DNA of 33,194 nucleotides. Origin: Crocinitomicaceae bacterium. GTDB taxonomy: Bacteria; Bacteroidota; Bacteroidia; Flavobacteriales_D; Sanyastnellaceae. Below the pieces are notes generated by a model, which did not search any database, was not told the DNA's origin, and worked only from the letters and a program-made list of their open reading frames with translations. Below are positions 3,101 through 21,354 of this stretch, piece after piece. Every line of letters starts with the position of its first letter. Position 1 is the first letter of the stretch. The translations under genes were made by a program, and so were the position numbers. Location: positions 14,449 to 47,642 of the forward strand of contig NZRP01000061.1 in assembly GCA_002693775.1 (NCBI GenBank). The letters are read 5' to 3'.

Positions 3101-3403
3101 GATGGCGAATGCTCTTCTCAGGCGACTAACGACGTTATCAGCAACTGGGTTTCTGTTGAAGATTTTGAGTCAGGAATTGGAGAGGCGCTTGCATACCCTA
3201 ACCCAACAAGTAGCGAGCAATTGATAGAATTCAGCGGCGAAGGCGTTGAGTTTATTCAGATATTCGACACTAAAGGATCTACCATTCTTTCGAATCAAAT
3301 ACCTAAGACTAACAGAGTAAAACTAGATTTTAGTTCTTTTGAAAAAGGTGTTTACACCTTAATCGCAGAAGGCTATTCAGCGATTAGAATTATAGTACAA
3401 TAA
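149..3403 (+). CDS. Secreted multidomain lamin-tail/PKD protein with T9SS type A sorting domain
   Basis: A 1084-residue exported protein. Residues 1-25 are a signal peptide ending SASAQ. Residues 26-140 form a lamin-tail domain (LVINEVDVIPGDGEQFVELF). Two related Cys-containing repeats follow (about 199-310 and 317-431; each begins CDGG). A second lamin-tail domain spans 437-600 (LIISEYVEG...KAIEIHNP). Then come a Calx-beta-like segment (610-715), an OB-like DUF5689-type segment (722-915; ACELRGIV, GLQFTLIDE), a PKD domain (921-1000; WSMGDGETYT) and a T9SS type A C-terminal domain (1014-1084; YPNPTSSE, ending in IIVQ). Such proteins are exported through the outer membrane by T9SS and released or anchored at the surface. 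Several Asp/Glu-rich loops suggest calcium binding (inference). No catalytic domain is visible. Its 3' end overlaps hemW by 14 bp, tail to tail. Confidence 0.85.
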   Translation: MTTRFNFLLAFFVGFTTLAGSASAQGLVINEVDVIPGDGEQFVELFGLPSSDLDGYSLALVKAQFLGGGVYEAQIYEALDLTGESLNEDGFVAFALPLNTTIAGVALYEADIESLVVGEAPPSDDVVDAIIYGNTSPGNPQAAVLLQAVMPAGSGLIYEGAEGNGQGQSISRFPNGGDAFDIDSYVLQAPTQGISNILACDGGYLEITNLANDTLCTDQGPAVATFNHFTDAPYALLTLLVVDPATGEIAVTANGSAVNFQGLGDGEFNVVAVSHDLPLVGSTIEVGQQLSGVIGEGCFSVSDFPFVVLCETCEVPACDGGTMLDASGAPEVLVCLSDDGTLVPFGYYSEAVEDDFLFAICNDDDEVLATTAEPYYDFTDLGADIYHVWGVSTQGDLDQTTVETGELVFNATALECDSVGASALEVTVMQCGDAGLCDDLIISEYVEGDSHNKAIEIHNPTPLTIDLAPYSVETYNNGATEPTQQLDLEGQLLPGGTFVIGNSQAVGAILNVSTVFSNVTWYNGNDAIVLRKNEEAIDIMGEIGEDPGEPWTVTTGGAMAEFTLVRKPNIGSGSTDWSEGMTQWDGYPQDTFDFLGDHSATCGGLGTMQIGFDFPELYVTEGGGVEVSMSPTYPLEDAVLKVSVAGGDAVVGVDYPDVFPLEFNFEMGLLNSQTFTFTAIDEEEPEIQEDVLLALSIVSGDVELGIDTMVVHILPSDLDYPVYEINQVRGVNPQGVLDSIGTACELRGIVHGWNDYPSGLQFTLIDETNGINAFSPVNDFGYDVVEGDSVRARGVIDQYLGLAQIRLDTLIYEGSGFDSEQPNLVFELDEETESRIIKLKCVELVNPAEWTNATPGFDVSITTGTQEILMRVDANTDLFGQPAPVGVFGVSGIGGQRDYNPPLVDGYTITPRGQFDLTEPVIADFIVVSPWDGSSGVVEVFNMSAGAGGYHWSMGDGETYTDDTPEHWYSESGTFTITLTAFSEDGECSSQATNDVISNWVSVEDFESGIGEALAYPNPTSSEQLIEFSGEGVEFIQIFDTKGSTILSNQIPKTNRVKLDFSSFEKGVYTLIAEGYSAIRIIVQ

Positions 3404-4532
3404 AGTCTGAGGCGATTGAGTCGCCTATAAGCCAATGTTCCTCAGAGATGCGGTGTCTACCGTTATCTAAAGAAACAATTGCGCCTGCCTCCGACCACTT
3501 TTGCCATGCGTCTTTATTTGAGCCGATGTGATCTACACCAAATAATTGCTCTAGCTCATTAAAATTAACCCCTTGAGCTGTCCTTAAACCCGTCATCATC
3601 ATTTCGTTACTACAATCAGCAGGAGTGAGAGTTTCTAAGGTGTCGGGAAGAATCAGTTCATCAATTGAGCGCAGGTATTTAGGATTATTAGAAACAACAG
3701 AGTAGCGAGACTTACCGTCGAACCCATGTGCGCCAGGTCCTAAACCTAAATAAGGAGCGCCCAACCAGTATGCAGAATTGTGCACAGCCTTGTTTTCTTT
3801 GTTACGCGCCCAGTTTGACACCTCGTAATGACTAAACCCATTATCCTCAGCGACTGAACAAATCAACCCGTAGTCAGATTCAATTACCGAATCAGGGGCT
3901 TCTTTTTCCTCGCCCTTTTTCACCCTAGCGCCTAACACAGTTCTGGGCTCCACGGTAAGCGCGTAGCAACTAATATGGTCGATAGGAAGAGAAAATGCCT
4001 TGCTCACAGTGTGTTCAAACGATTTAGGCGAGCCATGTGGAAGCCCATAAATAAGGTCGATTGAAACCTTATTAAAACCAGCTTTGCGGGCTGCAAAAAC
4101 GGCAGACTCAGCCTGTTCAGCTGAATGCTTGCGGTTCATCCAATTGAGTAAGGAGTCGTCAAAGGTTTGGACTCCAATGCTTATCCTATCAAAACCACAC
4201 TCAACATAACCCCTGGAAACCTCTTCAGTAAGGTCCTCGGGGTTTACTTCTATTGTAGCCTCGTCTAATCGCTCAGAATTAAACCCGGGCAAAGACTCAT
4301 TCAGCGCACCAAGAATTTTATCTATGTCTTGAAGCGATAACACGGAAGGCGTACCTCCTCCAAGATATAATGTCCGGAAATCTTCATTTTTCCACATCTC
4401 ACTGCGGAGCTTTATTTCCCTCACAACCCCGTTTACAAATGCGCCCACAGAATTCAACGAGGTTGAAAAGTGAAAGTCACAATAGTGGCATGCCGTTCTG
4501 CAAAAGGGAACATGTAGGTAGATTCCAGACAT
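3390..4532 (-). CDS. hemW: Radical SAM heme chaperone HemW
   Basis: 380 residues, normal for HemW. The N terminus carries the radical SAM cluster motif CxxxCxxC (C11, C15, C18, within YLHVPFCRTACHYCDF), followed by LGGGTPSVL, EVNPEDLT, RISIGVQTFDD and SIDLIYGLP, all typical of the HemN/HemW family, and the C-terminal HemW winged-helix part. The short N terminus without the HemN extension favours HemW, which delivers heme to respiratory enzymes, over coproporphyrinogen dehydrogenase. It acts in the cytoplasm or at the membrane. The gene converges with the T9SS cargo gene (14-bp overlap) and diverges from the biotin carrier gene. A GACCTTGC element lies 4 nt before the ATG. Confidence 0.88.
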   Translation of the reverse strand: MSGIYLHVPFCRTACHYCDFHFSTSLNSVGAFVNGVVREIKLRSEMWKNEDFRTLYLGGGTPSVLSLQDIDKILGALNESLPGFNSERLDEATIEVNPEDLTEEVSRGYVECGFDRISIGVQTFDDSLLNWMNRKHSAEQAESAVFAARKAGFNKVSIDLIYGLPHGSPKSFEHTVSKAFSLPIDHISCYALTVEPRTVLGARVKKGEEKEAPDSVIESDYGLICSVAEDNGFSHYEVSNWARNKENKAVHNSAYWLGAPYLGLGPGAHGFDGKSRYSVVSNNPKYLRSIDELILPDTLETLTPADCSNEMMMTGLRTAQGVNFNELEQLFGVDHIGSNKDAWQKWSEAGAIVSLDNGRHRISEEHWLIGDSIASDFIVL

Positions 4533-4536
4533 ATGC

Positions 4537-4565
4537 GCAAGGTCGGAGTAAAGAGATTAAATTTG
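4537..4565. promoter_or_regulatory. Divergent hemW / biotin carrier promoters, both near-leaderless
   Basis: Plus strand: TAAATTTG at 4558-4565 fits TAnnTTTG and ends 4 nt before the ATG at 4570. Minus strand: GACCTTGC (4544 to 4537), a weaker match, ends 4 nt before the hemW ATG at 4532. With such spacing the transcript would begin at or next to the start codon. Confidence 0.5.
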
Positions 4566-4569
4566 CGAC

Positions 4570-5055
4570 ATGGCAATGGAAATTCGTTGGGACGACAAGG
4601 TCGTCGAGGTAAGTGAAAAAGGCGAGGGTAGGTCTGATTGGGTTTGGACTCAGCTAGCACCAGGAAGCTACAGGGTAAACATCGATGGGAAAAACTACTC
4701 AGTTAGTGCAGTAGACGGCCCCGACAACTCAGGCAAGATGGTAGTCAGAGTATCCGGCGTAGAACGTGAGGTAACAATTCTTGACGAAAGAGCGTTACTT
4801 CTAGATAGAATGGGAATGTCGGCAGGCGATTCCAAGGCTGATCTAGAGCTCTGTGCGCCTATGCCAGGCAAGGTGCTAAGCGTGCTAGTTAAACCTGGAG
4901 ACACAGTAAACCCTGGTGATTCTCTTCTAATTCTAGAAGCTATGAAAATGGAAAACGTGATAAAATCAACAGTCTCAGCCACGGTTGAAGAAGTGTCAGC
5001 TAATGCCGATTCCGCTGTGGAAAAGGGAGAATTACTGATAAAATTCGCGGAATAG
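4570..5055 (+). CDS. Biotin carboxyl carrier protein subunit of an acyl-CoA carboxylase
   Basis: 161 residues. The C-terminal half (about 91-161) is a biotinyl/lipoyl domain with the biotinylation motif EAMKMEN; K126 is the acceptor lysine. CAPMPGKV and VKPGDTVNPGDSLLILEAMKM are typical. The N-terminal half resembles the linker region seen in stand-alone carrier subunits related to the propionyl-CoA carboxylase alpha tail. It should carry CO2 between a biotin carboxylase and a carboxyltransferase. Neither partner is encoded here, so whether it serves acetyl- or propionyl-CoA carboxylation cannot be decided. The gene has a promoter of its own directly before the ATG and is 22 nt from the next gene. 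Confidence 0.85.
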   Translation: MAMEIRWDDKVVEVSEKGEGRSDWVWTQLAPGSYRVNIDGKNYSVSAVDGPDNSGKMVVRVSGVEREVTILDERALLLDRMGMSAGDSKADLELCAPMPGKVLSVLVKPGDTVNPGDSLLILEAMKMENVIKSTVSATVEEVSANADSAVEKGELLIKFAE

Positions 5056-5062
5056 TTCTCCT

Positions 5063-5070
5063 TACCTTTC
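5063..5070 (+). promoter_or_regulatory. -7 element before the T9SS type B cargo gene
   Basis: TACCTTTC lies 7 nt before the ATG at 5078 and matches TAnnTTTG in all but the last base. It suggests that the five-gene chain starting at 5078 has its own promoter instead of relying only on read-through from the biotin carrier gene. Confidence 0.4.
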
Positions 5071-5077
5071 GAATGAA

Positions 5078-6085
5078 ATGCGAAAAGAGTTGAAACATAG
5101 GATATTAAAGACGGCGCTGTTTGCCGCAATTGCTTTAGTCGGTTTTTCAGAGGCCAACACTTTAGCCCAAACTTGCGACAACCCCACCCCCCTCTGCGGT
5201 GGCGAATCAGAATTGTCGACGCAGTTTACCCAAATGGACATGAGTGCTGCGCCAGTAAGCTCTTGCTTTACAGGTGACATGTTTTCTTTTGTTAGGTTTC
5301 ACACCACATACCTAAGCACAACTGAGGGAGTAACAGTAAGTCTTAGCAACATCGACTGCTCAAACACAGCAGTTACTGCAATGGTAGTACTTGCTAACCC
5401 GCTAGACTACTGCGACATTATCCAGTACTCTCCAGTTTCAGACTGCATTACAGCTACGTCAGACACACAGTTTACAACTGACGATCTCTACATCAACACC
5501 GACTACCTGGTTATCCTAAACTACCAAAGCGGTGCGGAGCCTTCGCTTTGTGAAATCGAGGTAGGAGTATCAGGCATACCGCTAACAATCGAGGCGTGTT
5601 GCCCCACAAATATTGACCATCTTGAGTCGGCAAACATTGATGTTCAGGGAGGCGACATAGGAGTGGGATACCAGTGGGAGCCTAGCGAATTCGTGGACAA
5701 CCCGACGGCCCACAATGTAAACGTAACTCCTGAGACAACTACCCTATTCGAGGTTAGTGGTTTTGTAGAAAATTGCGAATACTCTGACCAAATTCTAATA
5801 GTCGTTGGCACGGAAATAGACGTGCCTAATGCCTTTTCTCCCAACGGAGATACGGTTAATGACCTTTGGAATATCACAGGTCTTGCGTCATACACAGGCT
5901 CCATCCTAACCCTTTACGATAGGTGGGGTCAGCAGATAATGCGGACAAGCTCCTACCCACAACCATGGGATGGAAAAATAGGAGGTAAGGACGTTCCAGT
6001 AGGAACCTACTATTACGTTATTGAGTTAAACCAACCAGGAGTGGACCTTGAGCCCATCACAGGCAACGTAGCGATTATCAGATGA
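5078..6085 (+). CDS. Secreted protein with T9SS type B (CHU_C/gliding-motility-associated) sorting domain
   Basis: 335 residues. Signal peptide about 1-31 (hydrophobic core TALFAAIALVGF, ending LAQ). The body (32-245) is Cys-rich and probably an extracellular beta fold; residues 174-240 look like an Ig-type domain (YQWEPSEFVDNPTA...TTTLFEVSG). The last roughly 88 residues are a type B sorting domain: VPNAFSPNGDTVNDLWNI, then LYDRWGQQI, PWDGKIGGKDVPVGTYYYVI. Known type B cargos, such as SprB, depend on a PorP/SprF partner for T9SS export, and the next gene, overlapping by 4 bp (ATGA), encodes one. The unusually small N-terminal part gives no enzymatic clue; adhesion or a structural role is a guess. 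Confidence 0.85.
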   Translation: MRKELKHRILKTALFAAIALVGFSEANTLAQTCDNPTPLCGGESELSTQFTQMDMSAAPVSSCFTGDMFSFVRFHTTYLSTTEGVTVSLSNIDCSNTAVTAMVVLANPLDYCDIIQYSPVSDCITATSDTQFTTDDLYINTDYLVILNYQSGAEPSLCEIEVGVSGIPLTIEACCPTNIDHLESANIDVQGGDIGVGYQWEPSEFVDNPTAHNVNVTPETTTLFEVSGFVENCEYSDQILIVVGTEIDVPNAFSPNGDTVNDLWNITGLASYTGSILTLYDRWGQQIMRTSSYPQPWDGKIGGKDVPVGTYYYVIELNQPGVDLEPITGNVAIIR

Positions 6086-7029
6086 AGCAGCTAATGAAAA
6101 ACATTATAGCTGCCTCACTCCTAATCGCAGCAACATCAACTGTCCTCAACGCACAGTTCATTCCTACAAGATCTAACTACTTGATGTCTTCGTTCATGGA
6201 CCACCCAGCGGCAGCTGGGAATAAGGAATGCTTAGACATGAGGCTAGGACACAGAAACCAATGGGTAGGATTCCCGGGAGCACCCACAAACTCATACCTA
6301 AGCCTTACGGGCAGGTTAAGTGAAGGTGCCAGGTCAGCTCAGGGTGTTGGTGTTAAGCTTGAGAACGACCAAGCGGGACCATGGGGGTCGACATCTGTAA
6401 GCCTTGCCTACTCTCATAAAATCAAGCTGACTAAAGGAGGATGGGTAAGCGCTGGATTCTCTTTAGGGATGAGTCAGTTTAGGCTCAATATTGGAGATTT
6501 GGACTTCCCCGACGTGGAGGCGTCGGGAGATCCAGCTTTAACTGGAGAAACAGCACAATTCACCTTCCCTTTAATTGACGCTGGGTTCTGGTATCAAGAC
6601 AAAAAGAGCTTTGGCGGACTTTCCATTCTAAACGCCACATCAGCAAACATCAACGGCATTACTAGCGGGTCTAAGGCGCCTAAGGTAATTGTGGCTACAG
6701 GCGGATCTTCACTAGAGCTTGATGGCAAATACATGTTCAGGCCATCTGTAAACATCAGATATGCAAAAGGGCTAGCGCCAAGCTTTGAAATGAACGGCGC
6801 GGTTGTATACGACGACCTTATTTCCGTGGGCATAGGCTACAGGTCGCAAAGCGCTGTAGTTGGGTCATTTCAAGTTGCTCTGTTTGACTACATGAAGGTG
6901 GGTTATTCTTACGACTTTGGCATATCAAGAATCAACGTCGTATCAAACACCTCGCACGAGTTTACGCTGGCCTTCAGCGCGTGTGATAAAAATGCAAGCC
7001 GAGCAATTTCATGCCCAGCATACGACTAA
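6082..7029 (+). CDS. PorP/SprF family type IX secretion outer-membrane protein
   Basis: 315 residues with a signal peptide (about 1-24, ending LNA). It shows the family start FIPTRSNYLMSSFMDHPAAAG, the conserved RLGHRNQWVGFPGAP, and alternating strands of a beta barrel through FSLGMSQFRLNIG, DAGFWYQDKKSFGGLSI and VGIGYRSQSAVVGSFQVAL. PorP/SprF proteins sit in the outer membrane and serve as partners for T9SS cargo with type B domains. The start overlaps the cargo stop codon (ATGA), so the pair is probably translationally coupled. A second in-frame ATG lies 4 codons in. The 3' end overlaps the sensor kinase start by 19 bp. Confidence 0.88.
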   Translation: MKQLMKNIIAASLLIAATSTVLNAQFIPTRSNYLMSSFMDHPAAAGNKECLDMRLGHRNQWVGFPGAPTNSYLSLTGRLSEGARSAQGVGVKLENDQAGPWGSTSVSLAYSHKIKLTKGGWVSAGFSLGMSQFRLNIGDLDFPDVEASGDPALTGETAQFTFPLIDAGFWYQDKKSFGGLSILNATSANINGITSGSKAPKVIVATGGSSLELDGKYMFRPSVNIRYAKGLAPSFEMNGAVVYDDLISVGIGYRSQSAVVGSFQVALFDYMKVGYSYDFGISRINVVSNTSHEFTLAFSACDKNASRAISCPAYD

Positions 7030-8531
7030 ACAAACAGCGATGGAAGCAGGTGCTTCTTATTGCCGCAGCGGTTATCGCTGGGGCGACGCTTTGGTTTACA
7101 AACGATATAACTAAACAAGTTAAGAAACAGGAGAGGGCAAAGGTTGTTGCTTGGCATAAGGAAGTTGTTGCTAGGTCGGAAGTTGTTGCTAACTACACAG
7201 AACAGTTATTTAAAGAGCTTCAAGAGGACGAACGCCAAAAGGCCGACAGGCTCGCCGACGCCTACAGGATAATTGACAACCCACCCCCTGGAATGGACCT
7301 AACTTTTCCCGGTAAGATTATTAAAGACAACAACACAGTCCCGGTTTTAATCTATAACTCAGCTGGGTCTATGATTGACACAAACTTAGGAGAAGATGTT
7401 AAAAACAACGCGTCAGAAGCTTATTTCGACAGCTTGCGAGATGAGATGTCTTCCAGATTCGAACCCATACACTTCGAGGACGAGGGGTATTTCCTTTACT
7501 ATGATGAAAGCAAAAGGCTCAAGGAATTGAGAAAAGCAAAGAAGGAGCTTATCTCTTCTTTCATTTCTGAAACGGTACTAAACAGCGCTTCTGTGCCTCT
7601 ATTGTTCATGGATTCCACCAAGACAGAAGTCGTTGAATCCAAGGAAATCGATGAAACTGTAATAAGTGACCCTGAGCTTCTTAAGGCCAAACTTGAAGAA
7701 ATGGCTGAAGCAAATGAGCCTATTAAAATCAACATTCCTGGCGAAGGCGTTCGATATGTGTTTTTTGAGGAAAGCTATGTTGTTACCACAATGCAGTACT
7801 TCCCCGTCATTCAGCTGATTCTGATCGCAGTCTTCCTGTTTGTGGCTTACCTGGTATTTAGCAGTTTTAGAAGGGCTGAGCAGGATAGGGTTTGGGTTGG
7901 AATGGCTAAGGAAACAGCTCACCAGCTGGGTACGCCCCTAAGCTCTTTAATGGCTTGGGTTGAGCTTCTTGAGGCTGAAGGGGCGGAGAGCTCCAAACTA
8001 AATGAAATGAAGAAGGACGTAAAGCGCCTTCACACAGTAACTGATAGGTTTAGCAAAATTGGATCTCAACCAGAGCTTAAGCCTGAAAACCTATCTGCAG
8101 CCCTAGAGGCAACAGCGTCTTACATGAGGCCTAGAATTTCTAAACAAGTCTCTCTAAAGCTTGCTGGTGTCTCTAAACCCATAACAGCCCTCTTCAACCA
8201 AAGTCTTTTAAGCTGGGTGCTTGAAAACCTCCTGCGCAATTCAGTTGACGCAATGGAAGGCAAAGGCTCAATAACCATTGTGCTTTCAGAAGAAAAAAAC
8301 TCCGTTTTAATCGATGTTGTCGACGACGGCAAGGGCATCTCTAGATCTGACGCCAGAAACGTATTTGCTCCAGGATTCACGACCAAAAAGCGCGGATGGG
8401 GTCTGGGACTTTCACTGACAAAGAGAATTATTGAGGAGTACCATGGAGGAAAAATTGCCCTTCACAGCACGACTCCAGGAGAGGGCACAACATTCAGAAT
8501 CACCCTGAGAAAAGAGGCGGTATATGGCTAG
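7011..8531 (+). CDS. Orphan membrane sensor histidine kinase
   Basis: 506 residues. One membrane segment at about 13-30, an extracytoplasmic region 31-262 without recognisable sensor fold (coiled, charged, around 160-235), a second membrane segment at about 264-286, then the kinase. H box KETAHQLGTPLSSL (H304), N box ENLLRNSVDAMEG (N410), G1 DVVDDGKGIS, G2 KRGWGLGLSLTKRI. No HAMP or receiver domain is visible and no response regulator gene is nearby. The start lies inside the 3' end of the PorP/SprF gene, indicating co-expression with the T9SS cargo pair. It may sense envelope or secretion state; that is inference from context. Confidence 0.87.
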   Translation: MPSIRLNKQRWKQVLLIAAAVIAGATLWFTNDITKQVKKQERAKVVAWHKEVVARSEVVANYTEQLFKELQEDERQKADRLADAYRIIDNPPPGMDLTFPGKIIKDNNTVPVLIYNSAGSMIDTNLGEDVKNNASEAYFDSLRDEMSSRFEPIHFEDEGYFLYYDESKRLKELRKAKKELISSFISETVLNSASVPLLFMDSTKTEVVESKEIDETVISDPELLKAKLEEMAEANEPIKINIPGEGVRYVFFEESYVVTTMQYFPVIQLILIAVFLFVAYLVFSSFRRAEQDRVWVGMAKETAHQLGTPLSSLMAWVELLEAEGAESSKLNEMKKDVKRLHTVTDRFSKIGSQPELKPENLSAALEATASYMRPRISKQVSLKLAGVSKPITALFNQSLLSWVLENLLRNSVDAMEGKGSITIVLSEEKNSVLIDVVDDGKGISRSDARNVFAPGFTTKKRGWGLGLSLTKRIIEEYHGGKIALHSTTPGEGTTFRITLRKEAVYG

Positions 8532-9192
8532 TAAGATTGCAGTTACAGGAACAGGAAGGTCTGGCACAAACTTTTTTGCTATAGTTCTTACTGAATTAGG
8601 CCGTGACGTAAAGCACGAAGCAATGGGCTCAGACGGCATTGCATCTTGGTGCATAGTTCCCAATGTGAAAGACGCAGTCTACGGACCTGGTGGCGCGGTT
8701 TTAACCGACGATTTTGTGATAGGGCACCAAGTGCGCAACCCGCTTAAAACGATTGGATCTCTAACTACATTCAACAGAACAAGCTGGAGATACGTCTCAG
8801 AACACTCACCTTCTCTACCAAACAAAATAACGCACAGAGCAATGGTGCATTGGCTTGATTGGAACATAAGAGCTGCCGATATGTCGTCTCACACCTGGAG
8901 GCTAGAAAATATCGCCGAGGCTGCGCCTAGCATCTTAAAAGATCTGGGGTGGGACGTAGAAGATGAGGTTTGGGCTAAAGCATATGAAAGAGCTAGACAT
9001 GAAGCAAACACTGGCGCCTCGAGAGCAACTAACTCCCTATTCAACCCAAAAGTAGGTCCCATCACACAATGGCGTAGATTTCGATACAACAACAGAAAGC
9101 ACCCGGTCTCTTGGGCTGAACTCGAAAAAATTGACGCTCTCCTAACTCAGGAAATCCAAGATTTTGCTCATGCCCTTGGCTACGACGTCTAA
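8524..9192 (+). CDS. Sulfotransferase-like P-loop protein
   Basis: 222 residues. The N terminus holds a P-loop, GTGRSGTNFF (residues 9-18), in the position of the PAPS 5'-phosphosulfate-binding loop of sulfotransferases. VRNPLKTIGSL further on fits the 3'-phosphate-binding RxPxxxxxS pattern. The length is short for the family but complete in appearance. It would transfer sulfate from PAPS to a glycan or other acceptor; the acceptor is unknown. A different P-loop kinase-type activity cannot be ruled out. The start overlaps the kinase gene by 8 bp and the glycosyltransferase gene follows after 11 nt, so it is part of the same transcription chain. Confidence 0.65.
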   Translation: MASKIAVTGTGRSGTNFFAIVLTELGRDVKHEAMGSDGIASWCIVPNVKDAVYGPGGAVLTDDFVIGHQVRNPLKTIGSLTTFNRTSWRYVSEHSPSLPNKITHRAMVHWLDWNIRAADMSSHTWRLENIAEAAPSILKDLGWDVEDEVWAKAYERARHEANTGASRATNSLFNPKVGPITQWRRFRYNNRKHPVSWAELEKIDALLTQEIQDFAHALGYDV

Positions 9193-9203
9193 CAACAATC
9201 AAG

Positions 9204-10085
9204 ATGAAAGTCACCCTCTTCCATAGACTCATCCCCAGCTTCATCAGGGTGCCCCTTGCCATTCTTTTCCGCAAGCTTGGCATCTCAACCACCATCCAAA
9301 CAGCACTTTGCATCTCGTCTGCAAACCGCCGCCGCAACGCCTTCAAGCCTACAAAAACAGACCACAGCGACTCGAAAGTCCTAATTGTGTGCGCCCACTA
9401 TAACCATTTGAACTATCTGCCTTCTTGCATAGATAGTCTGATAGCCCAAACCCACCCCAACTGGCACCTGGTAATCGCAGACGACCTTAGCTCCGACCCT
9501 TCCACCCCCTCAACCCTCGCCTCCCTCGCCTCTAATGATCAACGAATAACAGTAATCTGCCTATCAGAAAACTCTGGTGCCTACATAGCCAGAAACACAG
9601 CCCTCGAAGCAGCCCCATCTGATTGGACACACATCACCTTCATCGACCCAGACGACGAAGCCACACCCCACTTTCTCGAGCACTCACTCGATGTGCTTGG
9701 CAACTTGGAAGGCTCGGTTCGCCCAGTACTCGAGCGTTGGAACGAAGACTTCACGAAAATGAAGTCCATGTTCGTAGGTCATTGCCCCACCCTTCACTCC
9801 CGCCTTGCATGGGAACGAGCTGGCGGCTTCCTACCAGTCCGCGTATCAGGCGACTCAGAACTTACATCGCGCCTCCACCACCTTTCAAAAGACGGAACCA
9901 CACACCTTCTTTCAGCCCACAAAACGGCCCAACGCTGCCGACTCCTGCCCGGCTCCGCGTCTCATCAATTCCTGCACGAGCGAAAAATTTGGCTTGAGAG
10001 CCACTCCGCCGCCCATGCTAAAATGTCAACGACCGAACTCCGCGTCGATCCCGTAACCGCACCGTGGCAAAATTGCAATCAATGA
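9204..10085 (+). CDS. Glycosyltransferase family 2
   Basis: 293 residues. The GT-A domain starts near residue 57 (KVLIVCAHYNHLNYLPSCI), with the nucleotide-binding ADDLSSD region, GAYIARNTAL and the metal-binding DxD-type site DPDDEA (D148-D151), then GGFLPVRVSGDSEL as the acceptor-side motif. The N-terminal 50 residues are basic and partly hydrophobic and may attach to the membrane. It would transfer a sugar from an NDP-sugar to an unknown acceptor, perhaps a surface glycan also touched by the upstream sulfotransferase-like protein. Base use is odd: the coding strand is very rich in C (for example 32 C against 6 G at 9481-9540), unlike the kinase or PorP genes, which hints at a different origin or mutational history. 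Confidence 0.82.
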   Translation: MKVTLFHRLIPSFIRVPLAILFRKLGISTTIQTALCISSANRRRNAFKPTKTDHSDSKVLIVCAHYNHLNYLPSCIDSLIAQTHPNWHLVIADDLSSDPSTPSTLASLASNDQRITVICLSENSGAYIARNTALEAAPSDWTHITFIDPDDEATPHFLEHSLDVLGNLEGSVRPVLERWNEDFTKMKSMFVGHCPTLHSRLAWERAGGFLPVRVSGDSELTSRLHHLSKDGTTHLLSAHKTAQRCRLLPGSASHQFLHERKIWLESHSAAHAKMSTTELRVDPVTAPWQNCNQ

Positions 10086-10108
10086 CGTACTTTTACAATC
10101 CCTCATTT

Positions 10109-10190
10109 GCCCGAATGGCGGAATTGGTAGACGCGCACGACTCAAACTCGTGTTCCGCAAGGAGTGTGGGTTCGATTCCCACTTCGGGTA
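10109..10190 (+). tRNA. tRNA-Leu (anticodon CAA)
   Basis: A class II tRNA folds fully: acceptor GCCCGAA (10109-10115) with TTCGGGT (10183-10189; G1-U72 wobble), D arm GCG/CGC, anticodon stem CACGA/TCGTG with loop CTCAAAC (anticodon CAA at 10143-10145, reading UUG), variable arm TTCC-GCAA-GGAG, T arm GTGGG-TTCGATT-CCCAC. The discriminator base is A; the CCA end is not encoded. It lies 23 nt behind the glycosyltransferase gene. Confidence 0.97.
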
Positions 10191-10191
10191 C

Positions 10192-10214
10192 AAAAGCCGC
10201 AAAGCGGCTTTTTT
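10192..10214 (+). terminator. Intrinsic terminator after tRNA-Leu
   Basis: Stem AAAGCCGC / GCGGCTTT with an AAA loop, followed by a T run (10209-10214), starting 2 nt past the tRNA. It probably ends both the tRNA and the upstream five-gene chain. Confidence 0.9.
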
Positions 10215-10306
10215 CATGCTCTCACCTAAAACAAAATCGCAAGCCAGTTGCACATTGCAACTGAATGCCTATAACAGCAATTATTCAGCCGTCCCTCCAA
10301 GCGCGC

Positions 10307-20382: not shown

Positions 20383-21354
20383 ATGGCTCGTACAACTTTT
20401 GAGCAATTATTAGAGGCCGGAGCACATTTTGGCCACCAGAAACGCAAGTGGAATCCACACATGGCGCCATACCTTTTCACAGAGAAAAAGGGTATTCACA
20501 TTATCGACCTGCACAAGACAATAGCTAAGATTGACGATGCTGCAGCTGCTATGAAGCAGATTGCTAAGAGCGGAAAGAAGATTCTTTTTGTTTCTACTAA
20601 GAAGCAAGGTCAAGAAATCATTTCAACTCACGCTAAGGCCATTGGAATGCCTTACGTAACTGAGCGTTGGTCTGGAGGGATGCTTACAAACTTCGGCACA
20701 ATCCGTAAGGCGATCCGTAAAATGACTCAAATTGACAAGATGGAGGCAGACGGAACACTTGCTATTCTATCAAAGAGAGAGCGTCTTCAGGTTAGCCGCC
20801 AGAGAGCGAAGCTTGATAAAAACTTAGGCTCTATTGCTGACATGACTCGTCTACCTGCTGCAATTTTCATCGTTGACGTAACGAAAGAGCACATTGCTCT
20901 TGCAGAGGCGAAGAAGCTTAGAATACCGGTATTCGCAATTGTTGACTCTAACAGCGATCCACGTCCGGTAGATTTCATAATTCCAGCGAACGATGACGCA
21001 ACTAAGTCTATCGACCTTATCACAAGAACTCTTGCTGAGGCGGTTGCTGAAGGACTAAACGAGCGCCAAGCTGAAAAGGCAACGGCAGACGCAAAGACAA
21101 CTAAGAAAGCTGCTGCTAAAGAGGACAATAAAGCTGAAGAACCTGCTGTTGAGGAAGCACCTGCTGCTGGAGAAGCACCTGCTACTGAGGAAGCTCCAGC
21201 TGCTAAAGAAGCACCTGCTACTGAAGAAGCACCTGCTGCTGAGGAAGCACCTGCTGCTGGAGAAGCACCTGCTACTGAAGAAGCACCTGCTGCTGAGGAA
21301 GCACCTGCTACTGAGGAAGCACCTGCTACTGAGGAAGTTAAAGCTGACAAATAA
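20383..21354 (+). CDS. rpsB: 30S ribosomal protein S2 (uS2) with long repetitive tail
   Basis: 323 residues. The first roughly 230 are a normal S2: FEQLLEAGAHFGHQKRKWNPHM, GIHIIDLHKT, ILFVSTKKQGQEI, ERWSGGMLTNFGTI, IFIVDVTKEHIALAEA, VDSNSDPRPVDFIIPANDDA. From about 236 a charged linker rich in Lys and Ala leads to ten copies of a hexapeptide EAPA(A/T)(E/G/K) (residues 258-317) and a last EVKADK. The tail is unstructured and acidic and adds about 80 residues to the family's usual size. S2 binds late in small-subunit assembly; the tail should point away from the core (inference). tsf follows after 28 nt. Confidence 0.96.
   Translation: MARTTFEQLLEAGAHFGHQKRKWNPHMAPYLFTEKKGIHIIDLHKTIAKIDDAAAAMKQIAKSGKKILFVSTKKQGQEIISTHAKAIGMPYVTERWSGGMLTNFGTIRKAIRKMTQIDKMEADGTLAILSKRERLQVSRQRAKLDKNLGSIADMTRLPAAIFIVDVTKEHIALAEAKKLRIPVFAIVDSNSDPRPVDFIIPANDDATKSIDLITRTLAEAVAEGLNERQAEKATADAKTTKKAAAKEDNKAEEPAVEEAPAAGEAPATEEAPAAKEAPATEEAPAAEEAPAAGEAPATEEAPAAEEAPATEEAPATEEVKADK
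21154..21333 (+). repeat. Ten 18-bp tandem repeats inside rpsB
   Basis: Ten consecutive in-frame units of 18 bp based on GAAGCACCTGCTGCTGGA or its Thr/Glu variants, encoding EAPAAG, EAPATE, EAPAAK, EAPATE, EAPAAE, EAPAAG, EAPATE, EAPAAE, EAPATE, EAPATE. Unit 3 differs most at silent sites (GCTCCAGC). Near identity suggests recent slippage expansion; copy number probably varies between strains without breaking the frame. Confidence 0.93.

Follow-up and report, generated by a model that had tools for sequence, protein, structure and literature searches.

The DNA analyzed here (referred to as the window) is a stretch of 33,194 nucleotides from a draft genome (1.87 Mb) of a marine Flavobacteriales bacterium that has not been cultured and whose relatives have been deposited as Crocinitomicaceae or Flavobacteriales metagenome-assembled genomes (MAGs), such as SP201, NAT165, UBA974, and UBA2619. 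It carries a run of co-oriented genes for a biotin carboxyl-carrier protein (BCCP), a type B cargo of the type IX secretion system (T9SS), a PorP/SprF-family protein, a sensor histidine kinase, a 222-residue sulfotransferase-like protein, and a family 2 glycosyltransferase (GT2), followed by a tRNA-Leu(CAA) gene [Table 1]. Domain calls on the window proteins refer to Pfam and NCBIfam. An original prediction, made from the window sequence, described a chain of five genes on the same strand joined by overlaps of 4 (cargo/PorP), 19 (PorP/kinase), and 8 bp (kinase/sulfotransferase-like) and an 11-nt gap to the GT2 gene, values that agree exactly with the coordinates. The five genes stand, but the start of the run does not lie at the cargo gene: its first member is most likely the BCCP gene, because it is co-oriented, lies just 22 nt 5′ of the cargo gene, and keeps this spacing in the genus (+16 to +22 nt where measurable). 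All junctions range from -19 to +22 nt in the 12/12 genus genomes that have the run on one contig, which argues that the tight packing is not due to chance. The predicted terminator after the tRNA is also recovered as a hairpin, AAAAGCCGC-AAA-GCGGCTTTTTT, with a T run (-15 kcal/mol, z -3.8). The promoter-like element proposed before the first gene finds no counterpart, as a sigma-70 scan returned six sites versus 10.3 in shuffled sequences with zero upstream of the cargo gene, and zero Bacteroidota-type elements (TTTG-N17-23-TAnnTTTG) are present within 4501-10300. The layout suggests that the run may be transcribed as a single operon.

Table 1. Genes and other features of the run and its borders.
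Feature	Position	Strand	Evidence
Biotin carboxyl-carrier protein (BCCP) gene	4570..5055	+	Biotin_lipoyl 3.6e-18; 22 nt 5′ of cargo
Type B C-terminal domain (CHU_C) T9SS cargo, 335 aa	5078..6085	+	CHU_C 5.6e-21, TIGR04131 3.6e-19
PorP/SprF-family outer-membrane shuttle/anchor	6082..7029	+	PorP_SprF 3.7e-55, TIGR03519 2.8e-60
Sensor histidine kinase, very probably PorY-type	7011..8531	+	HATPase_c 5.2e-22, HisKA 7.9e-5 (below cut-off)
Putative divergent sulfotransferase-like protein using 3′-phosphoadenosine 5′-phosphosulfate (PAPS), 222 aa	8524..9192	+	5′-phosphosulfate-binding (PSB)-like and 3′-phosphate-binding (PB)-like motifs; no Pfam match above cut-off
GT2 glycosyltransferase	9204..10085	+	Glycos_transf_2 1.9e-22
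tRNA-Leu(CAA), right-hand border of variable glycan-gene slot	10109..10191	+	ARAGORN
Intrinsic-terminator-like hairpin with T run	10192..10214	+	Fold energy

The kinase is very probably an orthologue of PorY, the sensor component of PorXY, a system that controls T9SS genes [PMC5445135, PMC7712824, PMC4800418]. It combines HATPase_c and HisKA domains with two membrane segments (identified by eye) and a periplasmic part of about 230 residues (roughly residues 32-262), and H304 lies in the invariant H-box AHQLGTPL. Counted from H304, S352 is found at H+48 (20/21 rows of the alignment) and S377 at H+73 (19/21 rows), with 202 residues remaining to the C terminus of the 506-residue protein. In PorY, the phosphorylated residue is His193 [PMC5445135], Ser241 (+48) and Ser266 (+73) are sites of gain-of-function changes [PMC7712824], and 201 residues follow the histidine in a protein of ~394 residues, the gene ending at nt 1185 [PMC4800418]. 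Outside the order, the kinase is 380-450 residues long, which brackets the length of PorY, and the His-Ser-Ser spacing varies by a few residues; the agreement in landmarks is thus good without being unique. In the window genome, three other kinases with a recognizable H-box fail this fingerprint.

The distribution of the kinase points in the same direction. A single strong match is present in 55/60 relatives, and a profile built from alignment A2 matches 154/198 Bacteroidota genomes at E ≤ 1e-80, one copy each; SprA_N, which marks the T9SS pore, is likewise present in 154 of the same 198 genomes. The two lists disagree in two genomes, G061 (see below) and G194. The latter has SprA and a truncated kinase match (2.9e-71) that covers positions 215-451 of the model and whose frame has no end within the examined piece; its mismatch is an artefact. 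The listed genomes that lack both belong to one family (f29, two genera), in which no kinase scores better than 2e-28, a value also reached by unrelated kinases. The co-occurrence of PorX and PorY with T9SS has also been reported [PMC10951265]. A gene for PorX (receiver and PglZ domains; L191:4829-6418) is located elsewhere in the window genome, and porX and porY are separate genes in Porphyromonas gingivalis as well [PMC4800418]. The original prediction of an orphan kinase therefore holds insofar as no response regulator is adjacent, but not in the wider sense, the kinase being very probably PorY with PorX encoded elsewhere, and PorX may be its phosphorylation partner. The suggestion that the kinase senses the state of the envelope or of export is strengthened, since PorY is the sensor of PorXY. 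Thus, the window organism resembles P. gingivalis, with its PorXY-SigP system, in the PorY landmarks and distribution of the kinase and in having PorX in the genome; it differs in that porY of P. gingivalis is a lone gene, whereas here it lies inside the operon-like run of a type B cargo and a PorP shuttle. As a separate observation, the window assembly contains two near-identical PorX regions (L191 and L192, i.e. C10 and C1 of G000), one with many ambiguous bases, which suggests a strain mixture or a duplicated assembly.

About 50 loci were compared, and the comparison divides the run into layers. The kinase is found directly 3′ of PorP in genera g1, g3, g5, g10, and g14, and the tree of the kinases places these linked ones together as a single group (1 change, a result repeated in each of 200 bootstrap trees). 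The linkage likely arose once, in the ancestor of these five sister genera; this is not proven because g11, an unlinked and long-branched genus, falls unresolved at the edge of the group. Sampling of 19 other families of the phylum (20 more genomes, two of them from f15) showed the kinase with neither PorP nor cargo as a neighbor. The order HemW (opposite strand)/BCCP-cargo-PorP is kept in distant genera of the family with the kinase located elsewhere, and BCCP-cargo-PorP is hence an old, family-wide core. In other families (L101, L106, L110, and L111), the kinase is adjacent to HemW, which would fit as its ancestral setting. The neighborhood check attached to the original prediction thus has a divided outcome: the kinase is conserved beside the cargo/PorP pair in five genera, not beyond, and the transferases are conserved inside the genus only. 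In unlinked genera, a giant CHU_C adhesin (1752-3509 residues) and a second PorP often occur within 5-10 kb 3′ of the core (L116, L117, L118, and L119).

Within the core, the cargo has a signal-peptide-like start, a Cys-rich N-terminal region, and a C-terminal TIGR04131/CHU_C domain. Homologues at E ≤ 1e-20 are present in 55/60 relatives, and a comparison with PDB sequences gave zero matches. That type B cargo and PorP/SprF proteins act together, as stated in the original prediction, is well established: the cargo requires a cognate PorP/SprF shuttle, which holds it [PMC12618676, PMC9143113], and retention is through PorP-like proteins and not covalently through a glycan, PG1035 being without anionic lipopolysaccharide (A-LPS) [PMC9143113]. 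The arrangement, with the PorP/SprF gene directly downstream of the cargo gene (and overlapping it in the window), is like that of the sprB-sprF, Fjoh_3952-3951, and PG1035-PorP pairs. It differs from them in the next gene, which encodes a sensor kinase and not a PorE-like protein. Moreover, the C-tail of the window PorP carries a Cys pair, C301/C311 (window positions 6982-7026), with the pattern of about C-X9-12-C-x-A-[YF] in the last 15-20 residues. The pair is invariant in 18/18 kinase-linked and 7/7 unlinked orthologues, and it is lacking in the second PorPs near the giant adhesins. SprF is tied to GldK via a Cys pair of its C-tail [PMC12635249], and by analogy it is possible that the window PorP could attach to GldK similarly, although the SprF tail is Cys-X-Cys and the window tail Cys-X9-12-Cys.

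Downstream of the kinase, the slot that ends at tRNA-Leu(CAA) differs between the sister genera. In the window genus it holds the two TRANSFERASES, the sulfotransferase-like and GT2 genes, the latter always 3′ of the former and syntenic in all contigs that reach that far. In g5, one species has genes for a polysaccharide pyruvyl transferase (PS_pyruv_trans), GT2, CTP_transf_3, and NeuB on a contig that ends before the tRNA, and the other has two copies of LicD, a methyltransferase, and a GT2-like protein. The slot of g10 contains GT2 and a different sulfotransferase (Sulfotransfer_1/3), that of g3 a lectin-CHU_C protein and GT4 (in one species also a UDP-GlcNAc 2-epimerase, Epimerase_2), and that of g14 no glycan genes. 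Judged by its gene content, the slot is a recurrent acceptor of surface-glycan genes and not a fixed module. The GT2 gene of the window itself has a strong strand asymmetry, with a GC skew of -0.33 and C making up 47% of third positions; its GC content is 54%, versus 44% for the window. The asymmetry is weaker, with the same sign, in most genus members. Beyond the tRNA, gene content varies widely between species, and one species has a serine recombinase (L085:11445-13064) immediately adjoining the 3′ end of this tRNA gene, which is likely an integration site. Another contig that fits this genus (L134, the same contig as G012:C54) was deposited as "Euryarchaeota archaeon isolate SP189", a probable mislabelled MAG.

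The 222-residue protein encoded in the slot is present in 13/14 genus genomes, in 0/46 other relatives of the family and order, and in 0/394 other Bacteroidota genomes. An origin as a phage or plasmid gene was considered and rejected, with zero matches in viral contigs, phages, and plasmids. It has an invariant P-loop, GTGRSGTN (residues 9-16), that is 5′-PSB-like, and an invariant R-x-P-x5-S motif, RNPLKTIGS (71-79), that is 3′-PB-like. Residues G9, G14, T15, R71, and S79 are invariant in 20/20 sequences, i.e., 11 members and nine other sulfotransferase-family proteins of the order. Pfam does not recognize the window protein itself, and weak matches to Sulfotransfer_3 (PF13469) are seen in 9/11 members (best E 0.0023). 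Profile-profile comparison with sulfotransferases using hhalign gave 2.7e-4, with negative controls, run in an earlier set-up, at 0.036 or worse; a search of solved structures by sequence gave zero matches. Together, the motifs and the predicted fold (discussed below) point to a probable divergent, genus-restricted PAPS sulfotransferase. It would share with known PAPS sulfotransferases (Sulfotransfer_1/3; Teg12, StaL, and SULTs) both PAPS-binding signatures and the best structural matches, and differ from them in having no Pfam match above cut-off, in its length of 222 residues, and in its confinement to one genus. As to the donor, the window genome has an operon of CysCDN-like genes (APS-kinase-like-CysD-CysN; APS, adenosine 5′-phosphosulfate), and genera of the family that have APS-kinase-like genes tend to have sulfotransferase genes as well (both in g1, g3, g10, g11, and g20). 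From these two features it follows that the organism probably makes PAPS. The APS-kinase-like domain is fused to a HAD-like domain (L188:3294-4094, 5′ of cysD and cysN), which seems to be an unusual CysC-like form kept in the genus. By analogy with the slot genes of the sister genera, the likeliest substrate of the sulfotransferase-like and GT2 proteins would be a surface glycan.

The order, spacing, conservation, and family membership of these genes are read directly from the genomes. A probable explanation, and the one that we favor, is that they constitute one operon made of three evolutionary layers: the family-wide core, PorY, and the glycan slot. In the first layer, T9SS would export the cargo, and a PorP-like barrel of its own would retain it at the cell surface. 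PorY, which is a lone gene elsewhere, would have joined the core once in the ancestor of the five sister genera. There it would phosphorylate PorX and in this way set T9SS gene expression, and its co-expression with a T9SS client and the matching shuttle would make the kinase level follow surface-protein output; the client may also feed back on PorY. In the third layer, the genus-specific PAPS sulfotransferase and GT2 would sulfate and extend a surface glycan, with no dedicated link to the cargo.

Other explanations have to be weighed against this one. The neighborhood might be neutral, co-oriented genes being packed in a small genome such that the kinase lies beside cargo and PorP without functional meaning. 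The size and compactness of the window genome, the fact that the kinase functions without this linkage in most genera and families, and the presence in the run of BCCP, an unrelated metabolic gene, speak for this possibility. However, the close junctions are kept across five genera, including those with larger genomes (2.1-2.9 Mb), while the outer neighbors turn over, and the kinase that joined is the T9SS-linked one and not a random gene. We therefore regard a neutral origin as unlikely, if still worth serious consideration. The original prediction went further in the other direction and proposed a regulated surface-display module in which all five products (kinase, cargo, shuttle, and the two transferases) would act on a single surface protein anchored through a glycan. 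Indeed, the five genes occur together and in the same order in every judgeable member of the genus. Nevertheless, sister genera have unrelated glycan genes where the transferases would stand, one (L093) is without the transferases, and type B cargo such as PG1035 is PorP-held [PMC9143113]. The idea that the transferases modify the glycan holding the cargo is thus not borne out, and the module as a whole is very unlikely.

The three-layer explanation also depends on the identities assigned to the kinase and to the 222-residue protein, and several points count against it here. The complete genome G061 has the kinase and no SprA; the joint absence of kinase and SprA in f29 is probably one loss event, so that the co-occurrence statistic is weaker than it appears; and the identity of PorY rests on landmarks taken from papers and on distribution, not on the PorY sequence itself. 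For the 222-residue protein, AlphaFold with a genus-only alignment gave a predicted local distance difference test (pLDDT) score of 50 and meaningless PDB matches. Adding sulfotransferases to the alignment raised the predicted template modeling (pTM) score to 0.71, and the PDB entries that match this model best are sulfotransferases without exception (best Foldseek E 0.012; Teg12 Z 9.8 with 196 aligned residues at 4.0 Å, StaL Z 9.3), but an alignment that already holds sulfotransferases leans toward that answer, and the model supports the fold without proving it. In addition, the APS-kinase-like protein matches part of its domain only. Could the kinase, which in the PDB matches only generic kinases, be another conserved Bacteroidota kinase that one family lost by chance alongside T9SS? 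The single family lacking both genes, G061, and the indirect comparison with PorY would be compatible with this. The matching spacing and C-terminal length, the kinase lengths outside the order, the failure of the other kinases of the window genome to fit the fingerprint, and the published co-occurrence with T9SS make such a coincidence quite improbable.

A bolder extension of the three-layer explanation is that the cargo-PorP pair acts as a surface reporter for PorY, with docked cargo signaling through the envelope to the co-encoded kinase in a self-contained export-feedback operon. The precedent is PorA (PGN_0123), a surface C-terminal-domain (CTD) protein of Porphyromonas that acts upstream of PorXY-SigP [PMC7712824]. 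Like the window cargo, PorA is a CTD protein of the T9SS with a genetic tie to PorY. The likeness is one of analogy only: PorA occurs in Porphyromonas alone and its link comes from genetics, whereas the window cargo is linked by its place in the operon-like run. If true, a PorA-like function would have evolved independently in marine Flavobacteriales, which we consider doubtful. In any case, the parts are ordinary and the arrangement is unusual. The input that PorY senses is not settled, and a probable porY gene in the operon-like run of one client and its shuttle names concrete candidate inputs, such that the question becomes testable with two proteins. Moreover, an orphan-looking kinase and a nameless sulfotransferase-like gene are given names, and the glycan genes are set apart as a fast-changing slot.

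Further features of the window lie outside the run. At 3390-3403, the genes for an LTD protein and HemW overlap in the window and in its two nearest relatives; eight genus contigs and some sister genera have an endonuclease/exonuclease/phosphatase-TSP3 protein between the two, which the window and those two relatives lack. An open reading frame at 20383-21354 encodes a ribosomal protein S2-like product whose C terminus is extended by a long stretch of EEAPAA/EEAPAT repeats.

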